Below, piece after piece: positions 978 through 13,046 of a stretch of DNA of 14,493 bases (the first letter of the stretch is position 1; each line of letters starts with the position of its first letter). The notes under the pieces were generated by a model. That model searched no databases. It was given only the letters and a program-made list of their open reading frames with translations, and was not told the DNA's origin. A program made the position numbers and the translations under genes. Source of the stretch: Methylovulum sp. (lineage in GTDB: Bacteria; Pseudomonadota; Gammaproteobacteria; Methylococcales; Methylomonadaceae); NCBI GenBank assembly GCA_028713595.1, contig JAQTNZ010000015.1, positions 1 to 14,493 of the forward strand, in the 5' to 3' direction.

Positions 978-2076
978 ATGCAAGAAATAAATCCGATAAA
1001 AAACAAGATTACCGACCTAAAAAGCCGTGGCGACGCGCTGAGGGGGTATCTTTGACTTCGATAACAAAAGTGAACGATTGGTTGAAGTTTTAAGGGAATT
1101 GGAAAACCCGAAAATCTGGGACAAACCCGAACAAGCACAGGCGTTGGGCAAAGAGCGCGGACAACTGGAGTTGGTAGTCAACACCATCCTCGAATTGGAG
1201 CGTGGCTTGGCCGATGCCGAAGAACTGTTGTTGATGGCGGTCGAAGAAGACGACGAGGATACCGTCGCTACTGTGGTCGAAGATTTGGACGGCTTTGAGA
1301 AACGCGTCGCCGATTTGGAATTTCGGCGCATGTTCTCCGGCGAAATGGATGCCTGTAACGCCTTTTTGGATATCCAGTCCGGTTCCGGCGGTACTGAGGC
1401 GCAAGATTGGGCTTCCATGATCGAGCGCATGTTTTTGCGTTGGGGCGAACGCCGGGGCTTTAAGACCGAACTGATCGAAGAATCCGATGGCGATGTCGCG
1501 GGCATCAAAAGCGCCACCATCCGCTTTGAAGGTGAATATGCCTTCGGTTGGCTGCGCACGGAAACCGGCGTGCACCGTTTGGTCAGAAAATCACCGTTCG
1601 ATTCCGGCAACCGCCGCCATACTTCGTTCGCGTCCGTGTTCGTGTCGCCAGAAATTGACGATGACATCGCCATCGACATCAATCCCGCCGATTTGCGTAT
1701 TGACGTGTACCGTGCCAGCGGCGCGGGCGGCCAGCACGTCAACCGGACCGAGTCCGCCGTGCGTATCACCCATAACCCAACCAACACCGTTGTGCAATGC
1801 CAGAGTGACCGTTCGCAGCACAAAAATAAAGACACCGCCATGAAGCAGCTTAAAGCCAAGCTGTACGAACTGGAAATGCGCAAACGCAGCGCCACCCAAC
1901 AGGCTTTGGAAGACAGCAAATCGGATATTGGCTGGGGCAGCCAAATCCGCTCTTATGTATTGGATCAGTCACGGATTAAGGACTTGCGCACCGGCGTGGA
2001 AACAGGCAACCCACAAGCGGTATTGGATGGCGATTTGGATATGTTTATTGAGGCGAGTTTGAAGAGCGGGTTATAG
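978..2076 (+). CDS. prfB: Peptide chain release factor 2, made by +1 programmed frameshift
   Basis: RF2 recognises UGA and UAA in the ribosomal A site and triggers peptide release. The zero frame starts at ATG 978 ([11 protein letters not shown]..., like E. coli MFEINPVNNRI) and meets TGA at 1053-1055 after 25 codons. Shifting +1 at CTT-TGA continues as [22 protein letters not shown] to the TAG at 2074-2076. That gives 365 aa, the same length as E. coli RF2. The stop-recognition SPF motif lies in VRKSPFDSG. The catalytic GGQ is at residues 250-252, exactly the E. coli numbering, in the context [21 protein letters not shown]. Residue 246 is Ala, as in most RF2 proteins, not the Thr of E. coli K-12. 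An ORF caller that ignores the shift would start falsely at TTG 1078. Downstream, an AT-rich cassette and phr separate it from lysS. Confidence 0.97.
1041..1056 (+). promoter_or_regulatory. RF2 +1 programmed ribosomal frameshift site
   Basis: The sequence AGGGGG-TAT-CTT-TGA-C is the canonical prfB autoregulation signal. It has an internal Shine-Dalgarno-like AGGGGG (1041-1046), a three-base spacer, the slippery CTT (1050-1052) and an in-frame TGA followed by C (weak stop context). In the known mechanism, low RF2 makes ribosomes pause at UGA and slip +1 to read GAC, so RF2 controls its own synthesis. Confidence 0.97.
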
Positions 2077-2145: not shown

Positions 2146-2853
2146 ATGAGAAAAATAATTGTCACTGATTTAACAAGATTTTCTAATTTGGATATCGTTT
2201 GTATTGCAGGTATAGATATTGTTAATGGAGATTGCATTAGGCCAATGCCCTATCTTAAAACTTCGCGATGCAAAGAATTAAATTTGCTACCGGGTGCAAT
2301 TCTAGCCGGAAGTTTTAGTAAATCACCAAACATTGAACTCCCGCACACTGAAGACATGAATTATCAAAATTTGCGGTTACTTAGACATTGTTCAGATGCA
2401 GAATTTAAAGAAATTTTATCTAATTCATCTTGTCAAAGTATCGAATGCGGTTTTAATGTGTACTTGGAGGAGCGTCAAAAACACATACTGCCAAACTTAA
2501 GGCCTTTAAAATCTTTGATTACTGTTTCGGTAAATCCCAATAACATTAACATTGTTCAGGATCAATTTGATTCAAAAAAAATGAAAATCCATTTCACTGA
2601 TAATGATAATAAAGAATATAACTTTTTACCCATTACTGATCTTGGTTTTTATGGTTATGCTGAGGAACACTATTCAACAGCAAATAATTACAATGAAATT
2701 AATTCTGTAATTCGAAGCCAAAAAGAAGTTTTTCTTCGAATTGGTTTGAGTCGTTTTCACAAAAGCCCTCAGAATAAAGAGGGTTTCTGGATAAAAGTGA
2801 ATGGTATTTATAGTTTTCCTGACTATTTTAAGGATGTCAGAAGGTATAGGTAA
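2146..2853 (+). CDS. Dual OB-fold-like protein, first gene of the accessory cassette
   Basis: A 235-aa soluble protein with no signal peptide or membrane segment. The start MRKIIVTDLTRFSNLDIVCIAGIDIVNGDCIRPMP, followed by LLPGAILAGSF, resembles by recall the uncharacterised dual-OB-containing domain family (DuOB), predicted from its fold to bind nucleic acid or nucleotides. No catalytic motif is evident. The ATG has a fair ribosome-binding site (AGAGGG, 2135-2140). Its stop directly abuts the ATG of the DUF488 gene (TAAATG), and the ribosome-binding site of that gene lies inside this one, so the two are co-translated. The gene is much richer in A+T than prfB: by hand count 2581-2640 has 14 G/C in 60 bases, against 36 in 60 at 1441-1500 of prfB. 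Function is unknown and the family name is from memory. Confidence 0.72.
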   Translation: MRKIIVTDLTRFSNLDIVCIAGIDIVNGDCIRPMPYLKTSRCKELNLLPGAILAGSFSKSPNIELPHTEDMNYQNLRLLRHCSDAEFKEILSNSSCQSIECGFNVYLEERQKHILPNLRPLKSLITVSVNPNNINIVQDQFDSKKMKIHFTDNDNKEYNFLPITDLGFYGYAEEHYSTANNYNEINSVIRSQKEVFLRIGLSRFHKSPQNKEGFWIKVNGIYSFPDYFKDVRRYR

Positions 2854-3291
2854 ATGCAGACTTTTACAATAGGATTTACCCAAAAGACTGCTGAGAAATT
2901 TTTTTCGATAATTAAAAACAACAACGTCAGTCGTGTAGTTGATGTGCGTTTAAATGTTACCTCACAATTGGCTGGTTTTACCAAAAAAAACGATCTGGGT
3001 TATTTTCTTAGGGAGTTGTGTCAGGCTGATTATGTCCATGTGATTGATTTGGCTCCGACTAAGCCCATGCTTGATGCCTACAAAAACAAAGATATTAGCT
3101 GGGAAAGCTATGCTGACAAGTTTATAAACTTAATGTCACAACGTAACATTGAAAGAATTATAGATAAATCTTTAATTGATAATGGTTGCTTATTATGTAG
3201 TGAACATCAGCCGCACCAATGTCATAGGCGGCTCGTAGCTGAGTATCTTAATAAGCAATGGGATGAAAATATCAAAATTGTACATTTGTAA
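2854..3291 (+). CDS. DUF488 family protein
   Basis: A 145-aa protein with the DUF488 pattern throughout: TIGF near the N-terminus, VVDVRLNVTSQLAGF (D30, R32), YFLREL, VIDLAPTKPMLDAYK, W83..Y86, and the C-terminal signature GCLLCSEHQPHQCHRRLVAEYL. C112, C115, E117, C123, H124, R125, R126 and E130 are the probable functional residues. DUF488 has no established biochemical activity. The conserved Cys/His/Arg set suggests an enzyme acting on a phosphorylated or nucleic-acid substrate, which is inference. The ATG directly follows the preceding stop, with AAGG at 2841-2844 as a likely ribosome-binding site. The TAA overlaps the next ATG by one base (TAATG), a translational-coupling arrangement. It shares the AT-rich composition of its two neighbours. 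Confidence 0.88.
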   Translation: MQTFTIGFTQKTAEKFFSIIKNNNVSRVVDVRLNVTSQLAGFTKKNDLGYFLRELCQADYVHVIDLAPTKPMLDAYKNKDISWESYADKFINLMSQRNIERIIDKSLIDNGCLLCSEHQPHQCHRRLVAEYLNKQWDENIKIVHL

Positions 3292-3887
3292 TGAGTATTC
3301 AAGAAATCCCAACAGTTTTTATAGCGTATCCTCATGACTTTTCATGTTATGGGAAGTTTGAAAGGAAAATTACCAAAATCCTGTCAAATCTAAATAATTT
3401 TTCTTTAACCTATATAGATGATTATATGGGATTTATTGAAAAAAAATTAGGTTCTGATAAACGGGTTTGCGACAGTGTGCCTCTATCTGATAACAAACGA
3501 ATTTTAGATGAAATTAGTTATGCTATCATTTTTAATGATAGCGAAAGTTTTTCTGGGCTTATCACTGACCTTTCAAGTAAGAAAATTCCCACAAGGCTTA
3601 TAGAAACAAGGATAACCAAAGTTGCCAATGTCGATAAAAAAGAAAAATATGATGTTTATATAGGCAGAGGTTCAGACTGGGGGAACCCTTATGTCATAGG
3701 CATAGATGGCGATAGGGACGAAGTTATCAGAAAATATCAATATGATTTTGAGCGCGGCTATCTTAAAAGTAGCAAAGAGCAATTGTTACAGTTACGCGGT
3801 AAGGTGTTAGGTTGCCATTGTAAGCCATCTGCGTGTCATGGTGACGTTTTAGCGAATTACTTAAATTCGCTTGATGATGGTAAATGA
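3291..3887 (+). CDS. SLOG-like / DUF4326 fusion protein
   Basis: A 198-aa protein with two apparent parts. Residues about 1-110 look like a small Rossmann-type domain. VFIAYPHDFSCYGKFE opens it, and YAIIFNDSESFSGLITDLSSKKIPTRLI (77-104) has the form of the SLOG/DUF2493 segment 'FWDGkSrGTkhmidlAkk..iPvrvi', associated with nucleotide-ligand binding. Residues about 118-195 match DUF4326: VYIGRGSDWGNPYVIG (G125, R126, W130, G131, N132, P133), then EVIRKYQYDF, then LRGKVLGCHCKPSACHGDVLANYL (C175, C177, C182, H183, D185). The C-terminal Cys/Cys-His pattern parallels that of the neighbouring DUF488 protein. No clear ribosome-binding site is visible; the one-base overlap suggests coupling. DUF4326 assignment is strong, the SLOG-like assignment moderate, and the activity unknown. 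Confidence 0.82.
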   Translation: MSIQEIPTVFIAYPHDFSCYGKFERKITKILSNLNNFSLTYIDDYMGFIEKKLGSDKRVCDSVPLSDNKRILDEISYAIIFNDSESFSGLITDLSSKKIPTRLIETRITKVANVDKKEKYDVYIGRGSDWGNPYVIGIDGDRDEVIRKYQYDFERGYLKSSKEQLLQLRGKVLGCHCKPSACHGDVLANYLNSLDDGK

Positions 3888-3904: not shown

Positions 3905-5263
3905 ATGCCCCACTATAACACCGCCCTGTTCCTATTCCGCCGGGATTTGCGCCTAATCGACAATACGGCGTTAAATGCGGCATTGCGTTCAGCCGAGCGG
4001 GTAATTGCAGGATTTGTGTTTGACGGACGGCAAATCAATCCGCATCCTTACCAAAGCCAGCCCGCTTTGGGATTTATGGTGCAAGCGTTGGCGGATTTGA
4101 CGGCGCAGTTTCAGGCTATGGGTGCAGATTTGGCGTTGTTCCAAGGTTCGCCTGTGCAGGTGATCGGCGATTTATGCCGACAACATAACATCCAAGCGGT
4201 GTTTATTAACCGTGATTACACCCCGTTTAGCCGCCAACGTGATGCGGAGATTGCCAAGCTGTGCCAGCAATTGCAGATTATGTTGCATAGTTTGCCGGAC
4301 GCGTTGCTGACCGAACCGGAGCAAGCACTCAAGCAAGATGGCAGTACCTATAAAGTGTTCACGGCTTTTTATAACAACGCTAAAAAAATACCCGTAGCCC
4401 CCCCGCAAGCTTTGGCAGAAGGCCATTTTTTACGGGTGGCCTCGACCGCGACGTTGGACAGTATTGCTGTTTCTGGTAAGGGCTTTGCGCAAGGTGGCCG
4501 CACGGCGGGATTGCAAAGGCTGGCGCGACTGAAAGATTGCGCCAACTATGCGCTGGAACGCGATTTTCCGGCCTTGTCAGCGACCAGCCAATTGTCGGCG
4601 CATTTAAAATTTGGCACGGTGTCGGTACGCGAAGTGTTTTACGCGCTGATCCAGCAATTCGGTGCCGAACATCCCTTGGTGCGGCAATTGTATTGGCGTG
4701 ATTTTATGACCCATATCGCGTACCATTTCCCCAAGGTGTTCGGCCATGCGTTTATTGATAAATTCGATAGCCTGGTTTGGGATAATGACCCTGTTTATTT
4801 TCAAGCTTGGACGGATGGGCAAACGGGGTTTCCCATTGTCGATGCGGGTATGCGTGAGCTAAACGCCACGGGGCTTATGCACAATCGGGTACGGATGATT
4901 ACGGCCACATTTTTGGTTAAAGATTTACGCATTAGCTGGCAGTGGGGAGAGCGGTATTTCGCCCAGCATTTGCTCGATTATGATCCATGCGTCAACAACG
5001 GCAATTGGCAATGGGCGGCCTCGACAGGGTGTGATGCCCAGCCCTATTTTCGGATTTTTAATCCGTGGTTACAGCAACAAAAATATGACCCCAAAGGTGA
5101 TTACCTGTATCGCTGGTTGCCGGAATTGCGTTCCATGCCGATTAAAACCCTCCATCAATGGCAACATCGGCATTATGGCGACTTTTATCCCGCGCCGATA
5201 GTTGACCATAGCGCCGAGGTACAGATCACTAAGGCGCGTTTTCAAGCGGCTAAAGTGCCGTAA
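3905..5263 (+). CDS. phr: Deoxyribodipyrimidine (CPD) photolyase, class I
   Basis: A 452-aa light-driven flavoenzyme that splits cyclobutane pyrimidine dimers in DNA. The N-terminal antenna domain starts LFLFRRDLRLIDNTAL. The C-terminal FAD domain carries LYWRDFMTHIAYH, TGFPIVDAGMRELNATGLMHNRVRMI, FLVKDLRISWQWGERYF and NNGNWQWAASTG followed by PYFRIFNPWLQ. The electron-transfer Trp triad is intact: W292, W345 and W368, matching E. coli W306/W359/W382. W264 corresponds to substrate-contacting W277. Length matches the family (E. coli 472). The antenna cofactor, MTHF or 8-HDF, cannot be decided by eye. The start is the ATG at 3905; an ATG at 3901 is out of frame and soon hits a stop. It lies 17 bases after the AT-rich cassette but has the host-like composition of lysS, so it is probably older than the cassette at this site. 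Confidence 0.95.
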   Translation: MPHYNTALFLFRRDLRLIDNTALNAALRSAERVIAGFVFDGRQINPHPYQSQPALGFMVQALADLTAQFQAMGADLALFQGSPVQVIGDLCRQHNIQAVFINRDYTPFSRQRDAEIAKLCQQLQIMLHSLPDALLTEPEQALKQDGSTYKVFTAFYNNAKKIPVAPPQALAEGHFLRVASTATLDSIAVSGKGFAQGGRTAGLQRLARLKDCANYALERDFPALSATSQLSAHLKFGTVSVREVFYALIQQFGAEHPLVRQLYWRDFMTHIAYHFPKVFGHAFIDKFDSLVWDNDPVYFQAWTDGQTGFPIVDAGMRELNATGLMHNRVRMITATFLVKDLRISWQWGERYFAQHLLDYDPCVNNGNWQWAASTGCDAQPYFRIFNPWLQQQKYDPKGDYLYRWLPELRSMPIKTLHQWQHRHYGDFYPAPIVDHSAEVQITKARFQAAKVP

Positions 5264-5344: not shown

Positions 5345-6841
5345 ATGTCCGACATACAACAAGACGAACAAGAACAAATCAAGCAACGCCGTAGCAAGCT
5401 CAATGAGTTACGTGAACAGGCCATTGCGTTTCCCACCGATTTTCGCCGTGATGCCATAGCGGGTGAATTGCTGGCCCAATACGGTGGCAAAACCAAAGAA
5501 GAGCTGGAAATCGAGCCTGTGCATGTAAAACTGGCGGGACGGATAATGACTCGGCGGGTTATGGGTAAGGCGAGCTTTTGCCATATCCAGGATATGTCCG
5601 GTAAAATCCAATTGTATGTGACCCGCGATGCGTTGCCAGAAGGGCTTTATAACGGGCAATTCAAAAAATGGGACATCGGTGACATTATCGGTGCCGAAGG
5701 CGTGTTGTTTAGGACCCAGACTGATGAGTTGAGCGTCAAGGTCGATGCTATCCGTTTGCTGACCAAAGCCCTGCGCCCGTTGCCGGAAAAATTCCACGGC
5801 ATTGCCGATCAAGAAATCAAATACCGCCAGCGCTATTTGGACTTGATTATGAGCCAGGAGTCACGCAACACCTTTTTTATCCGCTCCAAAATTGTCGCTT
5901 ATATCCGCCAATTCCTGATTGAACGCCAGTTTTTGGAAGTGGAAACGCCGATGATGCAGGTGATTCCCGGCGGGGCGACCGCCCGTCCGTTCACCACCCA
6001 TCATAATGCCTTAGACATGAATATGTTTTTGCGCATCGCGCCAGAATTGTATTTAAAGCGGCTGGTGGTCGGGGGCTTTGAGCGGGTGTTTGAAATCAAC
6101 CGCAACTTCCGTAACGAAGGTCTTTCGACTCGCCATAACCCCGAATTTACCATGCTGGAGTTTTATCAGGCCTATTCTGAATATCAGGATTTGATGGACT
6201 TGACCGAAGCTATGTTACGCGGTATTGCCGAAGAAGTGGTCGGGCAGACGGTCATCAGTTATCAGGGTGAGGAATACGATTTTGGCAAGCCTTTCCAGCG
6301 CATGACGGTGGTCGAATCTATCCTGCATTTTAATCCTGACTTGACCGCGGCTGATCTTGCCAGCCGCGAAGCGGCGGCGGTGGTGGCTGAAAAATTGCGC
6401 CTGCCCGTTAAAGACAGCTATGGCTTAGGCAAAATCCAGATTGAAATTTTTGAAAAAACCGTTGAAAGCCGTCTGATGCAGCCGACCTTCATCACCGCTT
6501 ATCCGGTGGAAGTCTCGCCGCTGGCCAGACGCAACGACATTGACCCGCACGTCACCGACCGTTTTGAGTTTTTTGTCGGCGGGCGCGAAATTGCCAACGG
6601 CTTCACCGAGTTGAACGATGCCGAAGACCAAGCAGCGCGTTTCCAAAAACAAGTGGCGGAAAAAGAAGCGGGCGATGATGAGGCCATGCACTTTGATGCC
6701 GATTATATCGTGGCCTTGGAGCACGGTATGCCGCCAACGGCAGGCGAGGGCATTGGTATCGACCGTTTGGTGATGCTGTTCACCGATTCGCCTTCCATCC
6801 GTGATGTGCTATTGTTCCCGCACATGCGGCCTAAGCTTTAG
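5345..6841 (+). CDS. lysS: Lysyl-tRNA synthetase, class II
   Basis: LysRS charges tRNA-Lys using ATP. The 498-aa product has an N-terminal OB-fold anticodon-binding domain ([32 protein letters not shown]) and a class II catalytic core. The core has a motif 1 region ([30 protein letters not shown]), motif 2 ([18 protein letters not shown] from F255, with R256 as the ATP-contacting arginine) and motif 3 ([13 protein letters not shown] from G467, then [13 protein letters not shown]). Length is as expected (E. coli LysS 505). The 81-base gap after phr contains TATAAAAT at 5296-5303 without a good -35. No clear ribosome-binding site precedes the ATG. It often follows prfB directly; here four genes lie between them. 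Confidence 0.97.
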
Positions 6842-10232: not shown

Positions 10233-10459
10233 CAAGTAAGGAAATATTTACAGGCATAATTTAATTATTTCTGCCAAAGAGTCGGTTAATATAACCAGAA
10301 TTGTTCCGATGTTTTAGCCAATGGCCGCCGATTGCGCCCGCCTTGTCCTGGGTGCGTATAAGGTGGTGCTATGGCGATGGCGGGAGAAGAATGGTTTCCA
10401 GAAAAATGTGCACGATATCGAGTCTTTTTTTAACCCACTAAATTTAAGAGAAACTGTTT

Positions 10460-11530
10460 ATGGCTGAAAAACCTGCAATGCCCAAACATCCTTATAAAGA
10501 ACAGCCAGATAAGGCTTTTTGGAAAAAAGTTGTCAGTGACACCTACCCTTTGGATATCAGCGAATGGTATGTAAAAAAATTTCCTATCTCTGATAGGCCC
10601 ATTGCCACGGCAGGCAGTTGTTTTGCCCAGCATATCGGCAAACAGCTTAAGGATCAGGGCTTTAATTTTATGGATGTCGAACCGGCACCGGAATTTTTGG
10701 ATAAGGCCAGCCATCTTGATTTTGGTTATGGCATGTATTCGGCCCGTTATGGCAATGTCTACAGTTCAAGGCAATTGGTGCAATTATTTCAAAGGGCTGT
10801 CGGTGAGTTTATGCCAGAAGAAGCCTTTTGGCATAAAGACGGCGGTTATGTTGACCCTTTTCGTCCGACTATTGAGCCAGTGCCCTTTGTCAGCATAGAG
10901 GAGCTTACTATCCATAGGGATTATCATTTGCAGTGTGTCAGGACATTGTTTAAAGATGCCCAAGTTTTTGTCTTTACATTAGGGCTAACAGAAACGTGGG
11001 TCTCTAAACGGGATGGTTCAGCGTATCCGGTAGCACCTGGTGTTTCAGGTGGTGTGTATGATCCTGACAAATATCAGTTGTTGAACTTGTCATGCGAAGA
11101 TGTTATCCGGGATATGGAAACTTTCTTTAAAATGGTCAGGCAACTCAATAATAAAATGCGCTTTATTCTGACGGTTTCTCCTGTCCCATTAATGGCGACT
11201 GCTACGGATGCCCAAGTAGTTGTGGCGACCATGTATTCTAAGTCGGTATTGCGTGCCGCTGCGGGTTTCCTTGCGGATAAGTACCGTTTTGTCGATTACT
11301 TTCCGTCTTATGAAATTATTTCTGCTCCAGTCATGCGTGGACAATTTTATAATCCTGATATGAGGACAGTATCACATTATGGCGTTGAACATGTGATGAA
11401 ACAGTTCTTTAAAGAACATCAACCCCCAAAAGGCGGCAAGCTAAAAAAAGGCAATCAGGCTGGACAAAAAGATGAAGTCGATGATGATGTGCGTTGTGAT
11501 GAAGAATTATTGGCCGTTTTTGGAGATTAA
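10460..11530 (+). CDS. GSCFA domain protein
   Basis: A 356-aa protein with the GSCFA signature IATAGSCFAQHIGKQL (G52-A56, with H58), the segment VFVFTLGLTETWVSKRDGSAYPVAPG, and ILTVSPVPLMAT. GSCFA is an SGNH/GDSL hydrolase-superfamily branch whose substrate is not established; members are often near polysaccharide or surface-glycan genes. S53 would be the block I nucleophile equivalent. A Lys/Gly-rich linker (PPKGGKLKKGNQ) precedes an acidic tail ending EELLAVFGD. No signal peptide is seen. The ribosome-binding site AAGAGA is 8 bases before the ATG. The next gene starts three bases after its stop, so the two form an operon. The clpB promoter diverges from it. Confidence 0.87.
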   Translation: MAEKPAMPKHPYKEQPDKAFWKKVVSDTYPLDISEWYVKKFPISDRPIATAGSCFAQHIGKQLKDQGFNFMDVEPAPEFLDKASHLDFGYGMYSARYGNVYSSRQLVQLFQRAVGEFMPEEAFWHKDGGYVDPFRPTIEPVPFVSIEELTIHRDYHLQCVRTLFKDAQVFVFTLGLTETWVSKRDGSAYPVAPGVSGGVYDPDKYQLLNLSCEDVIRDMETFFKMVRQLNNKMRFILTVSPVPLMATATDAQVVVATMYSKSVLRAAAGFLADKYRFVDYFPSYEIISAPVMRGQFYNPDMRTVSHYGVEHVMKQFFKEHQPPKGGKLKKGNQAGQKDEVDDDVRCDEELLAVFGD

Positions 11531-11533
11531 TCG

Positions 11534-12253
11534 ATGAAAGCCATCATTATTGGGGATTCGCATACGGCCGCCCTTAAGTTAGGTGCTGATATACTAAAGG
11601 GCCAAGAGGACTGGCCTTCGGAATATCAAGTTGAGGTGGAAAGATTGGGTGGTGCAAATAGCATGGTGAACCCGTACTTCATCGACAGGGGCGATTACGC
11701 CGAAATTATCAATGAAAAGCAGGCAAAGAATATACAAAGGCTGCCGTTTGTCGAAGAAGGGAGCCAGTGCGCCTATTATGGCTTTTCTGGGCCGTTACAT
11801 GCGAGCAGGTTATGGCGGCGGCAAATGAATTGGCCAAATTTTACGCCATTTGCACCAAAAGGAAACCAAGCTCCGATTTCAACCGGCTTATTGAAGCATG
11901 TTGTTTTTCAGGAACAGATTTATACCATGCAATTGGTTGAACTGCTAAAGCGTGTGGGTATTAAGCTTTTTGTCATTGAAGCGCCAAAACCATACAGGCA
12001 TCATCGCATATTGGAAAAGGTAAGTCCTGACATCATTTCTTATATCGATAGGTTTTACAAAAATGCCATGAAAGACTGGTTAGAATCGAAAGGTGTGCCT
12101 ATCATAAGCATACCCAGCCATTGTTATGATGCGGATGGGTTTATGTATGACACCTTTAGAAATGAGGCGTTGGATGATGGATTACATGCAAGCAAAGAAT
12201 TTGGGGCATTAATGATTAATGAAGTTATCAAGTTCCTGAAATCACAGGGCTGA
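11534..12253 (+). CDS. SGNH/GDSL-type hydrolase
   Basis: A 239-aa protein opening MKAIIIGDSHTAALKLGAD. G7-D8-S9-H10 is a block I GDS nucleophile motif with His in place of Leu. D215-G216-L217-H218 (LDDGLHASKEFG) is the block V Asp-x-x-His pair, so Ser, Asp and His of the triad are present. The middle blocks are not clear by eye; FVIEAPKPYRHH follows a strand and might supply other contacts. No signal peptide is present, so it should be cytoplasmic. It is three bases from the GSCFA gene and certainly co-transcribed. An esterase, acetyltransferase-like or deacylase role on a glycan is inference. Confidence 0.8.
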   Translation: MKAIIIGDSHTAALKLGADILKGQEDWPSEYQVEVERLGGANSMVNPYFIDRGDYAEIINEKQAKNIQRLPFVEEGSQCAYYGFSGPLHASRLWRRQMNWPNFTPFAPKGNQAPISTGLLKHVVFQEQIYTMQLVELLKRVGIKLFVIEAPKPYRHHRILEKVSPDIISYIDRFYKNAMKDWLESKGVPIISIPSHCYDADGFMYDTFRNEALDDGLHASKEFGALMINEVIKFLKSQG

Positions 12254-12275
12254 TTGGATTCATAAATATTGCCCG

Positions 12276-12317
12276 TCATTGCGGCAATCCACTATCCTGA
12301 TGGGATTGCCGCAATGA
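12276..12317. repeat. 15-bp perfect inverted repeat (REP-like or terminator)
   Basis: TCATTGCGGCAATCC (12276-12290) and GGATTGCCGCAATGA (12303-12317) are exact reverse complements around a 12-base loop. It lies between the SGNH gene stop and the third SGNH-superfamily gene. No T-run follows closely. It resembles REP/MITE-type dispersed palindromes, and could also attenuate transcription into the downstream gene. Confidence 0.7.
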
Positions 12318-12356
12318 TTGTCATTTATCCAAGAAAATAGGCAAAGAGTTGGGCTT

Positions 12357-13046
12357 ATGAAAAATCTTATTTATTTAGTCCTGTTATTGTGGGGCAATAT
12401 CGTCATGGCCGCTGAAGATCCGGCATTGCGTAAATCCCGCTTGTTTATACTCTCCGGGCAATCGAACATGGTCCGCCTCGACCCTGGTTTAACGTTTACA
12501 CCAACGTTAAAAAAAGCTTTTCCAGACGATGACATTGTCGTAATTAAAGATGCCAAAGGAGGGAAACCGATTAGCCGCTGGTATAAAAAAGCAGTACCTG
12601 AAACCGGTGATAAGGCTGCTGGGATAGGCGATCTTTATGATCGGTTAATCGGCAAAGTAAAGGCCGAAATTGACAAAAAACAATTTAGCACCATAACTTT
12701 TGTTTGGATGCAGGGCGAGAGTGATGCCAAAGATGGTCATGGGGATCAATATGAAAGCGAATTGCGTGGTGTGATTGGCCAGTTAAAGCAAGATATGCAA
12801 CGAGATGACCTTTATGTGGTGCTGGGGCGTATCAGTGACTTTGGTTTACAGCACCAAAAACTCAAAAGTGATTGGGAAAAGGTGCGCAATGCCCAGATGC
12901 ACATAGCCGAAACTGAACCTTACACAACGTGGGTTGACACGGACGACCTTAATGGCGATAACGATAGGCTGCATTATACTGATGACGGCTATCTGAAATT
13001 CGGTGCCAGGCTGGCGCAAGCGGCTATTGCCCTGCTGAAGAAATAA
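12357..13046 (+). CDS. Exported SASA / CE6-type carbohydrate esterase
   Basis: A 229-aa protein. The chosen start is ATG 12357, with GAG 8 bases upstream. An earlier TTG at 12318 is in frame but would add 13 residues ahead of a good signal peptide (MKNLIYLVLLLWGNIVMAA, cut near residues 18-19). The mature domain matches the sialate O-acetylesterase/acetylxylan esterase family: LFILSGQSNM with S36 as nucleophile, FVWMQGESDA (Q119, G120, E121, D123), and D203-R-L-H206 as the Asp-His pair. All catalytic residues seem present. It probably removes acetyl groups from a glycan in the periplasm or outside. It follows the two other SGNH-superfamily genes but is separated by the inverted repeat, so it may be a separate or attenuated unit. 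Confidence 0.85.
   Translation: MKNLIYLVLLLWGNIVMAAEDPALRKSRLFILSGQSNMVRLDPGLTFTPTLKKAFPDDDIVVIKDAKGGKPISRWYKKAVPETGDKAAGIGDLYDRLIGKVKAEIDKKQFSTITFVWMQGESDAKDGHGDQYESELRGVIGQLKQDMQRDDLYVVLGRISDFGLQHQKLKSDWEKVRNAQMHIAETEPYTTWVDTDDLNGDNDRLHYTDDGYLKFGARLAQAAIALLKK

Follow-up and report, generated by a model that had tools for sequence, protein, structure and literature searches.

A three-gene DuOB, DUF488 and mSLOG-DUF4326 cassette in Methylovulum, related to the phage-defence candidate PDC-M45

A three-gene cassette related to PDC-M45

We analysed a 14,493-nucleotide stretch of Methylovulum sp. DNA (assembly GCA_028713595.1, contig JAQTNZ010000015.1; the whole stretch is referred to as the window) that carries three adjoining genes, encoding a dual OB protein (DuOB), a DUF488 protein, and a fusion of a minimal SLOG domain (mSLOG) to DUF4326 (gene 3; Table 1). 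The three genes are usually inherited together in the same order, are under purifying selection with invariant Cys and His residues, and lie in mobile and defence-rich surroundings. In our preferred reading, which we hold with about even confidence, the triad is a complete, horizontally moving, defence-type cassette related to PDC-M45 that acts on nucleic-acid ends or nucleotides. DuOB would grip an invader's nucleic acid where it is single-stranded or has exposed ends, while mSLOG would bind a nucleotide or NAD-derived ligand and place or gate the reaction. DUF488 and DUF4326, both Cys-His-containing domains, would act as a pair, the second member being another DUF488 in sister systems, and would remove or transfer a phosphate or ribosyl-phosphate at a nucleic-acid end or on a nucleotide, so that phage replication would stall. 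If the cassette is a defence system, it would link nucleotide chemistry to nucleic-acid recognition. DUF488 and DUF4326 are by name domains of unknown function; DUF488 matches occur in 6 of 14 control genomes.

Table 1. Features of the cassette and its surroundings (window positions)
Feature	Positions	Strand	Remarks
Left border, PrfB-like open reading frame (TTG-started as listed)	1078-2076	+	found in 113/121 same-family genomes
Exchangeable cargo segment	2079-3632	.	blastn: nothing shared with L035 between conserved flanks
Gene 1, DuOB, divergent subfamily, 235 amino acids (aa)	2146-2853	+	predicted nucleic-acid-binding subunit
Gene 2, DUF488, "active N3a" type, PDC-M45C-like, 145 aa	2854-3291	+	Pfam and PADLOC
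Putative DUF488 active-site loop, C112-x2-C115-S-E117-...-C123-H-R125	3187-3228	+	invariant residues
Gene 3, mSLOG-DUF4326 fusion, 198 aa	3291-3887	+	PF22565 3.1e-27, PF14216 2.1e-23
mSLOG domain, candidate nucleotide-binding part	3309-3623	+	96.6 bits; residues 7-111 of gene 3
DUF4326 domain	3633-3854	+	residues 115-188 of gene 3; retained when the rest of the cassette differs in relatives
Putative DUF4326 active-site loop, C175-x-C177-x-P179-x2-C182-H-G-D185	3813-3845	+	invariant residues
Context, DNA photolyase, not part of the system	3905-5263	+	PF00875/PF03441
Right border, LysS-like open reading frame	5345-6841	+	slot border in scan

The preliminary description of this DNA, made by reading the sequence, had reported an abutting stop/start, a one-base overlap, AT-rich genes and the family names used here, and these observations hold. 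The DuOB stop codon (2851-2853) abuts the DUF488 ATG at 2854, and the DUF488 TAA (3289-3291) shares one base with the gene 3 ATG at 3291. GC content is 31-39% in the triad genes vs 54% in the upstream PrfB-like gene and 51% in the photolyase and LysS-like genes, and at third codon positions it is 24-35% vs 56-65% in the flanking genes; the triad is an AT-rich insert between prfB and the photolyase and lysS. DuOB passes Pfam PF22557 (34 bits, curated cut-off 27), mSLOG passes PF22565 (95.3 bits, curated cut-off 27), and DUF4326 passes PF14216 (83.2 bits, curated cut-off 25). DUF488 matches PF04343 (80.6 bits, 1.9e-22) and its active subclade DUF488-N3a, PF22751 (41.9 bits, cut-off 27, 1.4e-10), and scores 15.6 bits against the inactive subclade N3i, below the cut-off of that model. 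A 2023 study by Burroughs and Aravind is reportedly the source of DUF488 and DUF4326 as enzymatic families and of the Pfam names DuOB, mSLOG and DUF488-N3, and is said to predict that some members are DNA-end-processing enzymes in conflict systems.

None of the three proteins matched an NCBIfam model, and searches against solved structures, by sequence and by profile, yielded no usable hit (the profile search returned no rows for DUF488, and for gene 3 three rows with E values of 1.1-3.5). DuOB shows OB-type matches, including BRCA2 and RPA rows, besides a few other rows (for example NigD-like and NlpE). The window DuOB (2146-2850) also weakly matches positions 222-320 of the PADLOC model RTasMBL, a DRT-associated protein model (1.2e-4), perhaps through a common OB part.

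Linkage of the three genes

A profile scan of genome contigs with gene 3 returned 192 relatives (loci are numbered with the prefix L). The best 80 of the 192 were analysed, so the sample leans toward close relatives, and it contains near-duplicates such as L015/L016 and L038/L039. Triad genes were detected in these loci by profile searches on stop-to-stop frames. DuOB, DUF488 and gene 3 were found with the same order and strand in 64 of the 80 loci, so that a search for the families as neighbours across genomes, as proposed in the preliminary description, reveals linkage beyond chance. All three genes were covered nearly in full in 59 of these triads, and five were partial or frame-broken (L017, L025, L030, L053 and L091, with most of DUF488 deleted in L025). 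Elsewhere in the set, L066 carries all three genes with DuOB inverted, the contig of L022 stops after DUF488, and DUF488 and DuOB are absent from the available sequence around mSLOG-DUF4326 in L026 and L054. Eight loci hold a DUF4326 piece alone, adjacent to lysS (seven open free-standing reading frames and one fragment, L074), and L032, L088, L092 and L093 begin at a contig end. Near the gene 3 relative of L026 (10001-10594), one gene resembles a DNA cytosine methyltransferase by eye. The titles of the 80 loci include Gammaproteobacteria, Zetaproteobacteria, Desulfobacula, Halodesulfovibrio, Sulfurimonas, Sulfurovum, Magnetococcales, and one Breznakibacter metagenome-assembled genome (MAG). 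In the Halodesulfovibrio locus L051 (8235-10618), two tandem DuOB genes, one per subfamily, precede DUF488 and mSLOG-DUF4326.

Two further queries gave a similar picture, with loci partly overlapping among the three (between the DuOB and gene 3 queries, L007 = L024, L008 = L047, L010 = L027, L011 = L025). On viral contigs, a DUF488 query built on patterns of the close subfamily rather than the whole of DUF488 found DuOB at 19 of 20 loci, some of them near-duplicates; the exception, L273, begins at a contig end. mSLOG-DUF4326 was present at 17 of the 20, and L276, L280 and L281 hold DuOB with a weakly scoring and a strong DUF488. One viral contig, L279 (1-1790), has the permuted order mSLOG-DUF4326 (partial, at the contig end), DuOB, DUF488. 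The DuOB query matched 11 of 274 genomes of the class, the window's own included; DUF488 lay in the fetched flank in 10 of the 11 (none in L005, and only a fragment in L011), gene 3 in five, and a weak-plus-strong DUF488 pair in three. From the linkage seen with all three queries, most complete cassettes combine DuOB with a strong DUF488 and one further gene, mSLOG-DUF4326 or a second DUF488. The two enzymatic partners would make a mixed pair of active sites. The cassette is patchily distributed, since mSLOG matched only 4 of 398 genomes of the phylum, again counting the window's own.

Conserved residues and selection

Aligned relatives preserve the residues of both putative active-site loops. 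All 64 DUF488 proteins share the invariant residues D30, R32, C112, C115, S116, E117, C123, H124 and R125, and all 66 gene 3 proteins share R126, N132, P133, R142, C175, C177, P179, C182, H183, G184 and D185, the window included in both sets. The ratio of nonsynonymous to synonymous substitution rates (dN/dS, by a Nei-Gojobori script) between the window and L014 was 0.02 for DUF488 and 0.07 for gene 3, and against L015 it was 0.20 for DuOB and 0.11 for gene 3. Synonymous sites were often near saturation, and three further window comparisons were saturated; the values of 0.02-0.20 in the four estimable comparisons indicate purifying selection. A possible common fold of DUF488 and DUF4326, as members of a RapZ-C-DUF488-DUF4326 clade in the rhodanese-phosphatase superfamily, was probed by aligning the two with hhalign, which gave a weak kinship match (19 columns, probability 31.6%).

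Relation to known systems

The closest known system is PDC-M45. PDC, a PADLOC name, stands for phage-defence candidate and reportedly comes from Payne and colleagues. The window DUF488 matches M45C over residues 1-144 of 145 (3.3e-67) and M45B much less well (2.5e-13). Among related triads, 46 of 50 upstream open reading frames that had escaped the first DuOB profile were scanned (L031, L044, L053 and L091, short or fragmentary, were dropped); all 46 proved to be PF22557 DuOB and all 46 match M45A, whereas the window DuOB has no M45A match at E<=1. The window's own assembly (76.6% complete) has one match each to DuOB, DUF488, mSLOG and DUF4326, and thus no second DUF488, in whose place mSLOG-DUF4326 stands; gene 3 matched no PADLOC model at E<=1. 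With M45C present and M45A and M45B lacking, the cassette is related to PDC-M45 but is not strictly PDC-M45.

A second candidate, PDC-M19, a DUF488 fusion with a partner, shares a DUF488 domain and the same prfB-lysS slot in L140 (4682-6369, scanned) and in L161, which clusters with it by BLAST. It differs in its partner, M19B, and in the extent of DUF488, which is limited to residues 150-269 of 280; DuOB, mSLOG and DUF4326 were not found in the L140 and L161 slots.

Passages of PMC9503650 and PMC7824862 describe SLOG-DUF4326 fusions, with the same two domains as gene 3, in phages and large DNA viruses. Gene 3 was matched by 1,785 of 50,697 phage records, among the matches listed mainly through its DUF4326 half, but only 3 of the 1,785 cover at least 80% of it, and the same collection held no match to the window DUF488 or DuOB at 1e-5. 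If the cassette is a defence system, DUF4326 would act on both sides of the phage-host conflict. The many phage matches to this half also fit a shared small substrate, and so an alternative built on a molecule derived from NAD or ADP-ribose (ADPr), which mSLOG would sense and DUF4326 with DUF488 would make or destroy, with DuOB as the trigger that detects the invading nucleic acid; defence would then run through a soluble nucleotide instead of nucleic-acid end processing. One published passage infers that DUF4326 processes terminal phosphates on the ribose of ADPr-type molecules, an inference that also favours the preferred reading. We regard this alternative as possible though unlikely: Pfam recognised neither an NADase nor a signal-making synthase nor a separate killer effector in the triad, none is annotated on a 4.2-kb plasmid that carries it, and a nucleic-acid substrate would account at least equally well for DuOB lying beside the two enzymes. 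An archaeal fusion of DUF488 and a helix-turn-helix to a CTP-binding ParB-type fold is mentioned in a passage of PMC12704722.

All of the families are known, and RefSeq already names a "dual OB domain-containing protein" adjoining DUF488 and DUF4326 in Escherichia coli islands; the cassette therefore belongs to a kind already known or predicted. Among the matches listed, a literature search returned no description of the triad, nor did it find a phage test of the cassette, and the main text of DefensePredictor does not mention DUF488, DUF4326, SLOG or PDC.

Mobile elements and defence-gene neighbourhoods

The triad is carried by mobile elements. In a plasmid collection, gene 3 relatives occur in 46 records, 20 of them with at least 80% coverage, and DUF488 relatives, not all of the triad system, occur in 137 (82 of these typed conjugative). 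On a Citrobacter plasmid of 4,167 bp, DUF488, gene 3 and DuOB (spanning the record start) are accompanied by two other annotated small open reading frames, from which we infer that the triad can require little more in cis. On a Klebsiella plasmid, the triad adjoins a NotI-family restriction-modification pair, and three E. coli triads lie on islands beside ffs, with an integrase and a recombinase. Close relatives are rare in that species: among 5,426 E. coli genomes, two DNA queries matched 12 and 4, with no match covering more than 80% of the query.

The residence of the triad on a very small plasmid and on integrase islands would also suit a plasmid or island maintenance module, acting in addiction or competition rather than against phages, and the prfB-lysS slot takes toxin-antitoxin-type pairs as well. 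We nevertheless consider such a module improbable, given the three-gene structure, in which Pfam recognised no toxin or antitoxin family, and the broken copies (frame breaks in L017, L030, L053 and L091; the internal deletion in L025), which would be unexpected if losing a component killed the host.

On another small plasmid, pA172 (L240), a segment carrying ISEcp1, a CMY beta-lactamase and sugE breaks up DuOB, and DUF488 and gene 3 remain open. Two E. coli islands have a convergent 150-aa gene beside the triad (L244 12962-13414 and L245 10298-10750; 67% identical) with a ParB-like "DGRHR" motif by eye. A conserved fourth, downstream gene was considered and rejected, the 156-aa gene of the 4,167-bp plasmid being unrelated to the 150-aa island genes; neither had a match at 1e-3 among the open reading frames of the loci set searched.

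For the neighbours of the triads we scanned proteins of 150-900 aa, at most two per locus, excluding 12 loci that were mainly prfB-lysS, and counted PADLOC families rather than proteins. Within 1.5 kb of the triads (106 of 133 proteins scanned), 39 families were found at 1e-40, including Gabija GajB, Thoeris ThsB, Lamassu LmuB, Cas1 and Cas10. More than 6 kb away (77 of 110 proteins scanned), there were 47 at the same threshold, including Zorya, Drt5, Csm3, and type I and II restriction-modification. The baseline was one family among 99 open reading frames from 15 unmatched stretches of other genomes, a figure biased low, as 15 of 20 requested stretches were obtained, the genomes were unmatched, and the frames were picked mechanically, some probably being spurious in high-GC genomes. 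The contrast of near with far neighbours did not support a tight association of defence genes with the triad itself, because far neighbours are equally rich and only the random-frame baseline stands apart; richness does not fall off with distance, and it is islands with which the triad is associated. The triad thus occurs in the setting expected of an anti-phage system, namely defence islands or hotspots and mobile elements. The preliminary description had proposed a sensing or modification module, perhaps a defence or stress system, and this interpretation is partly supported.

The prfB-lysS slot

In the window, the cassette lies in a slot bordered by PrfB-like and LysS-like genes (prfB and lysS). 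The stretch after prfB was surveyed in 112 genomes other than the window's own. Both borders were within reach in 94 of them, and lysS was out of reach in 18. The borders are less than 300 bp apart, leaving the slot empty, in 58 of the 94, and wider in 36, mostly with unrelated cargo; one of these, L205, has 313 bp without an open reading frame.

Cargo was identified from scanned representatives; the labels HEC and PDC are PADLOC names. Nine slots hold AAA_21-type ATPases, of which the scanned L129 and its DUF4276 partner match HEC-01 (4e-190 and 3e-71). Outside these cargo clusters, the ATPase of L143 matches HEC-04 (9e-45). Six hold a weakly HEPN-like 138-aa gene with a partner; a homologue of this gene matched PF05168 at 0.014, under the cut-off, and PADLOC PDC-M28A at 1e-5. 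The survey also turned up an Mrr restriction enzyme, photolyases (five), PIN-type DUF433/DUF5615 pairs (five, of which one was scanned), PDC-M19A/B pairs (two, of which one was scanned) and RelB-type pairs (two, with the antitoxin of one scanned). In L155 (contig of L038), a HEPN gene and a free DUF4326 accompany a GmrSD_N protein that matches NsnA and PD-T4-2_A; L141 (contig of L050) has a free DUF4326 preceding a photolyase; and L177 (contig of L014) holds one DuOB-DUF488-gene 3 triad. In the window's family, the slot is a hotspot frequently occupied by defence genes. If the cassette is itself a defence system, this would be a defence hotspot in methane-oxidising bacteria. In L038 (8227-10297), GmrSD_N (DUF262), HEPN_MAE_28990 and the free DUF4326 form a possible three-gene defence module. 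It also occurs in L039 and L042 and lies between prfB and lysS in L038, L039 and L155 and without prfB in L042; the genes of L038 alone were scanned.

The photolyase begins 17 bases after gene 3, and OB folds are found in repair proteins, as in the BRCA2 and RPA rows above. Both points would suit DNA-repair or stress genes that belong with the photolyase. This explanation appears highly improbable to us. A photolyase occupies the slot without the triad in L127, L130, L162 and L164, the triad occurs without a photolyase in L014/L177 and L017, and the GC contents of the two differ sharply. Since the slot can hold either one without the other, the photolyase was rejected as a fourth member of the cassette.

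Exchange at the DUF4326 boundary

Of eight loci compared with the window by blastn, the nearest was L035, a Methylovulum MAG with flanks 96-97% identical. The two sequences are 97.2% identical up to position 2078, two bases past the prfB stop, and homology resumes at 3633, with 95.7% identity for 6.7 kb. This point falls at codon 115 of gene 3, with which the DUF4326 domain opens. In place of DuOB-DUF488-mSLOG and the fused DUF4326, L035 has genes of 140 and 154 aa and then a free-standing DUF4326 that is 91% identical; the 140-aa gene is HEPN-like by eye, from its resemblance to a gene of L057. Homology to the window resumes at 3781 in L127, with an apparent DUF4326 remnant before the photolyase, and at 3858 in L130.

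The same arrangement, a weakly HEPN-like gene of 138-140 aa and a gene of 154-161 aa without a Pfam match, followed by a free DUF4326, was observed in L035 (508-1733), L045 (where the first gene of the pair was not called) and L057 (9055-10273). The pair occurs without DUF4326 in L130, L135, L136, L142, L154 and L157.

Six free-standing DUF4326 genes have pairwise dN/dS values of 0.04-0.20, with one pair saturated. In a tree, free and fused DUF4326 are mixed (free L050 groups with fused L017, support 98/94), and the starred branches require the state to have changed at least twice, although the bootstrap was not settled. The free genes look functional, and appear to have arisen from or given rise to fused ones, possibly repeatedly. 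A broader proposal, which we put forward as doubtful, is that DUF4326 is a portable constant core to which DuOB-DUF488-mSLOG, GmrSD_N/DUF262 with HEPN, or HEPN-like pairs are attached by recombination at its boundary within the slot. If true, defence modules that differ in mechanism would have one small Cys-His domain in common, much like exchangeable variants with a shared cassette end. We found no paper on exchange at the DUF4326 domain boundary in the literature search, nor, in a full-text search, one on a prfB-lysS defence hotspot; these are the parts of the analysis for which no publication was found. With a natural 4.2-kb plasmid that carries little but the triad, and a slot whose content differs between close genomes, the function is directly testable.

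A second local exchange separates the window (10302-12951) from L035 (8144-10089). A gene with a GSCFA domain (10460-11530) and the next gene (11534-12253) are swapped in order in L035, at 77% and 74% identity, between flanks that are 96% and 91% identical; a ClpB-like gene lies upstream of the swap.

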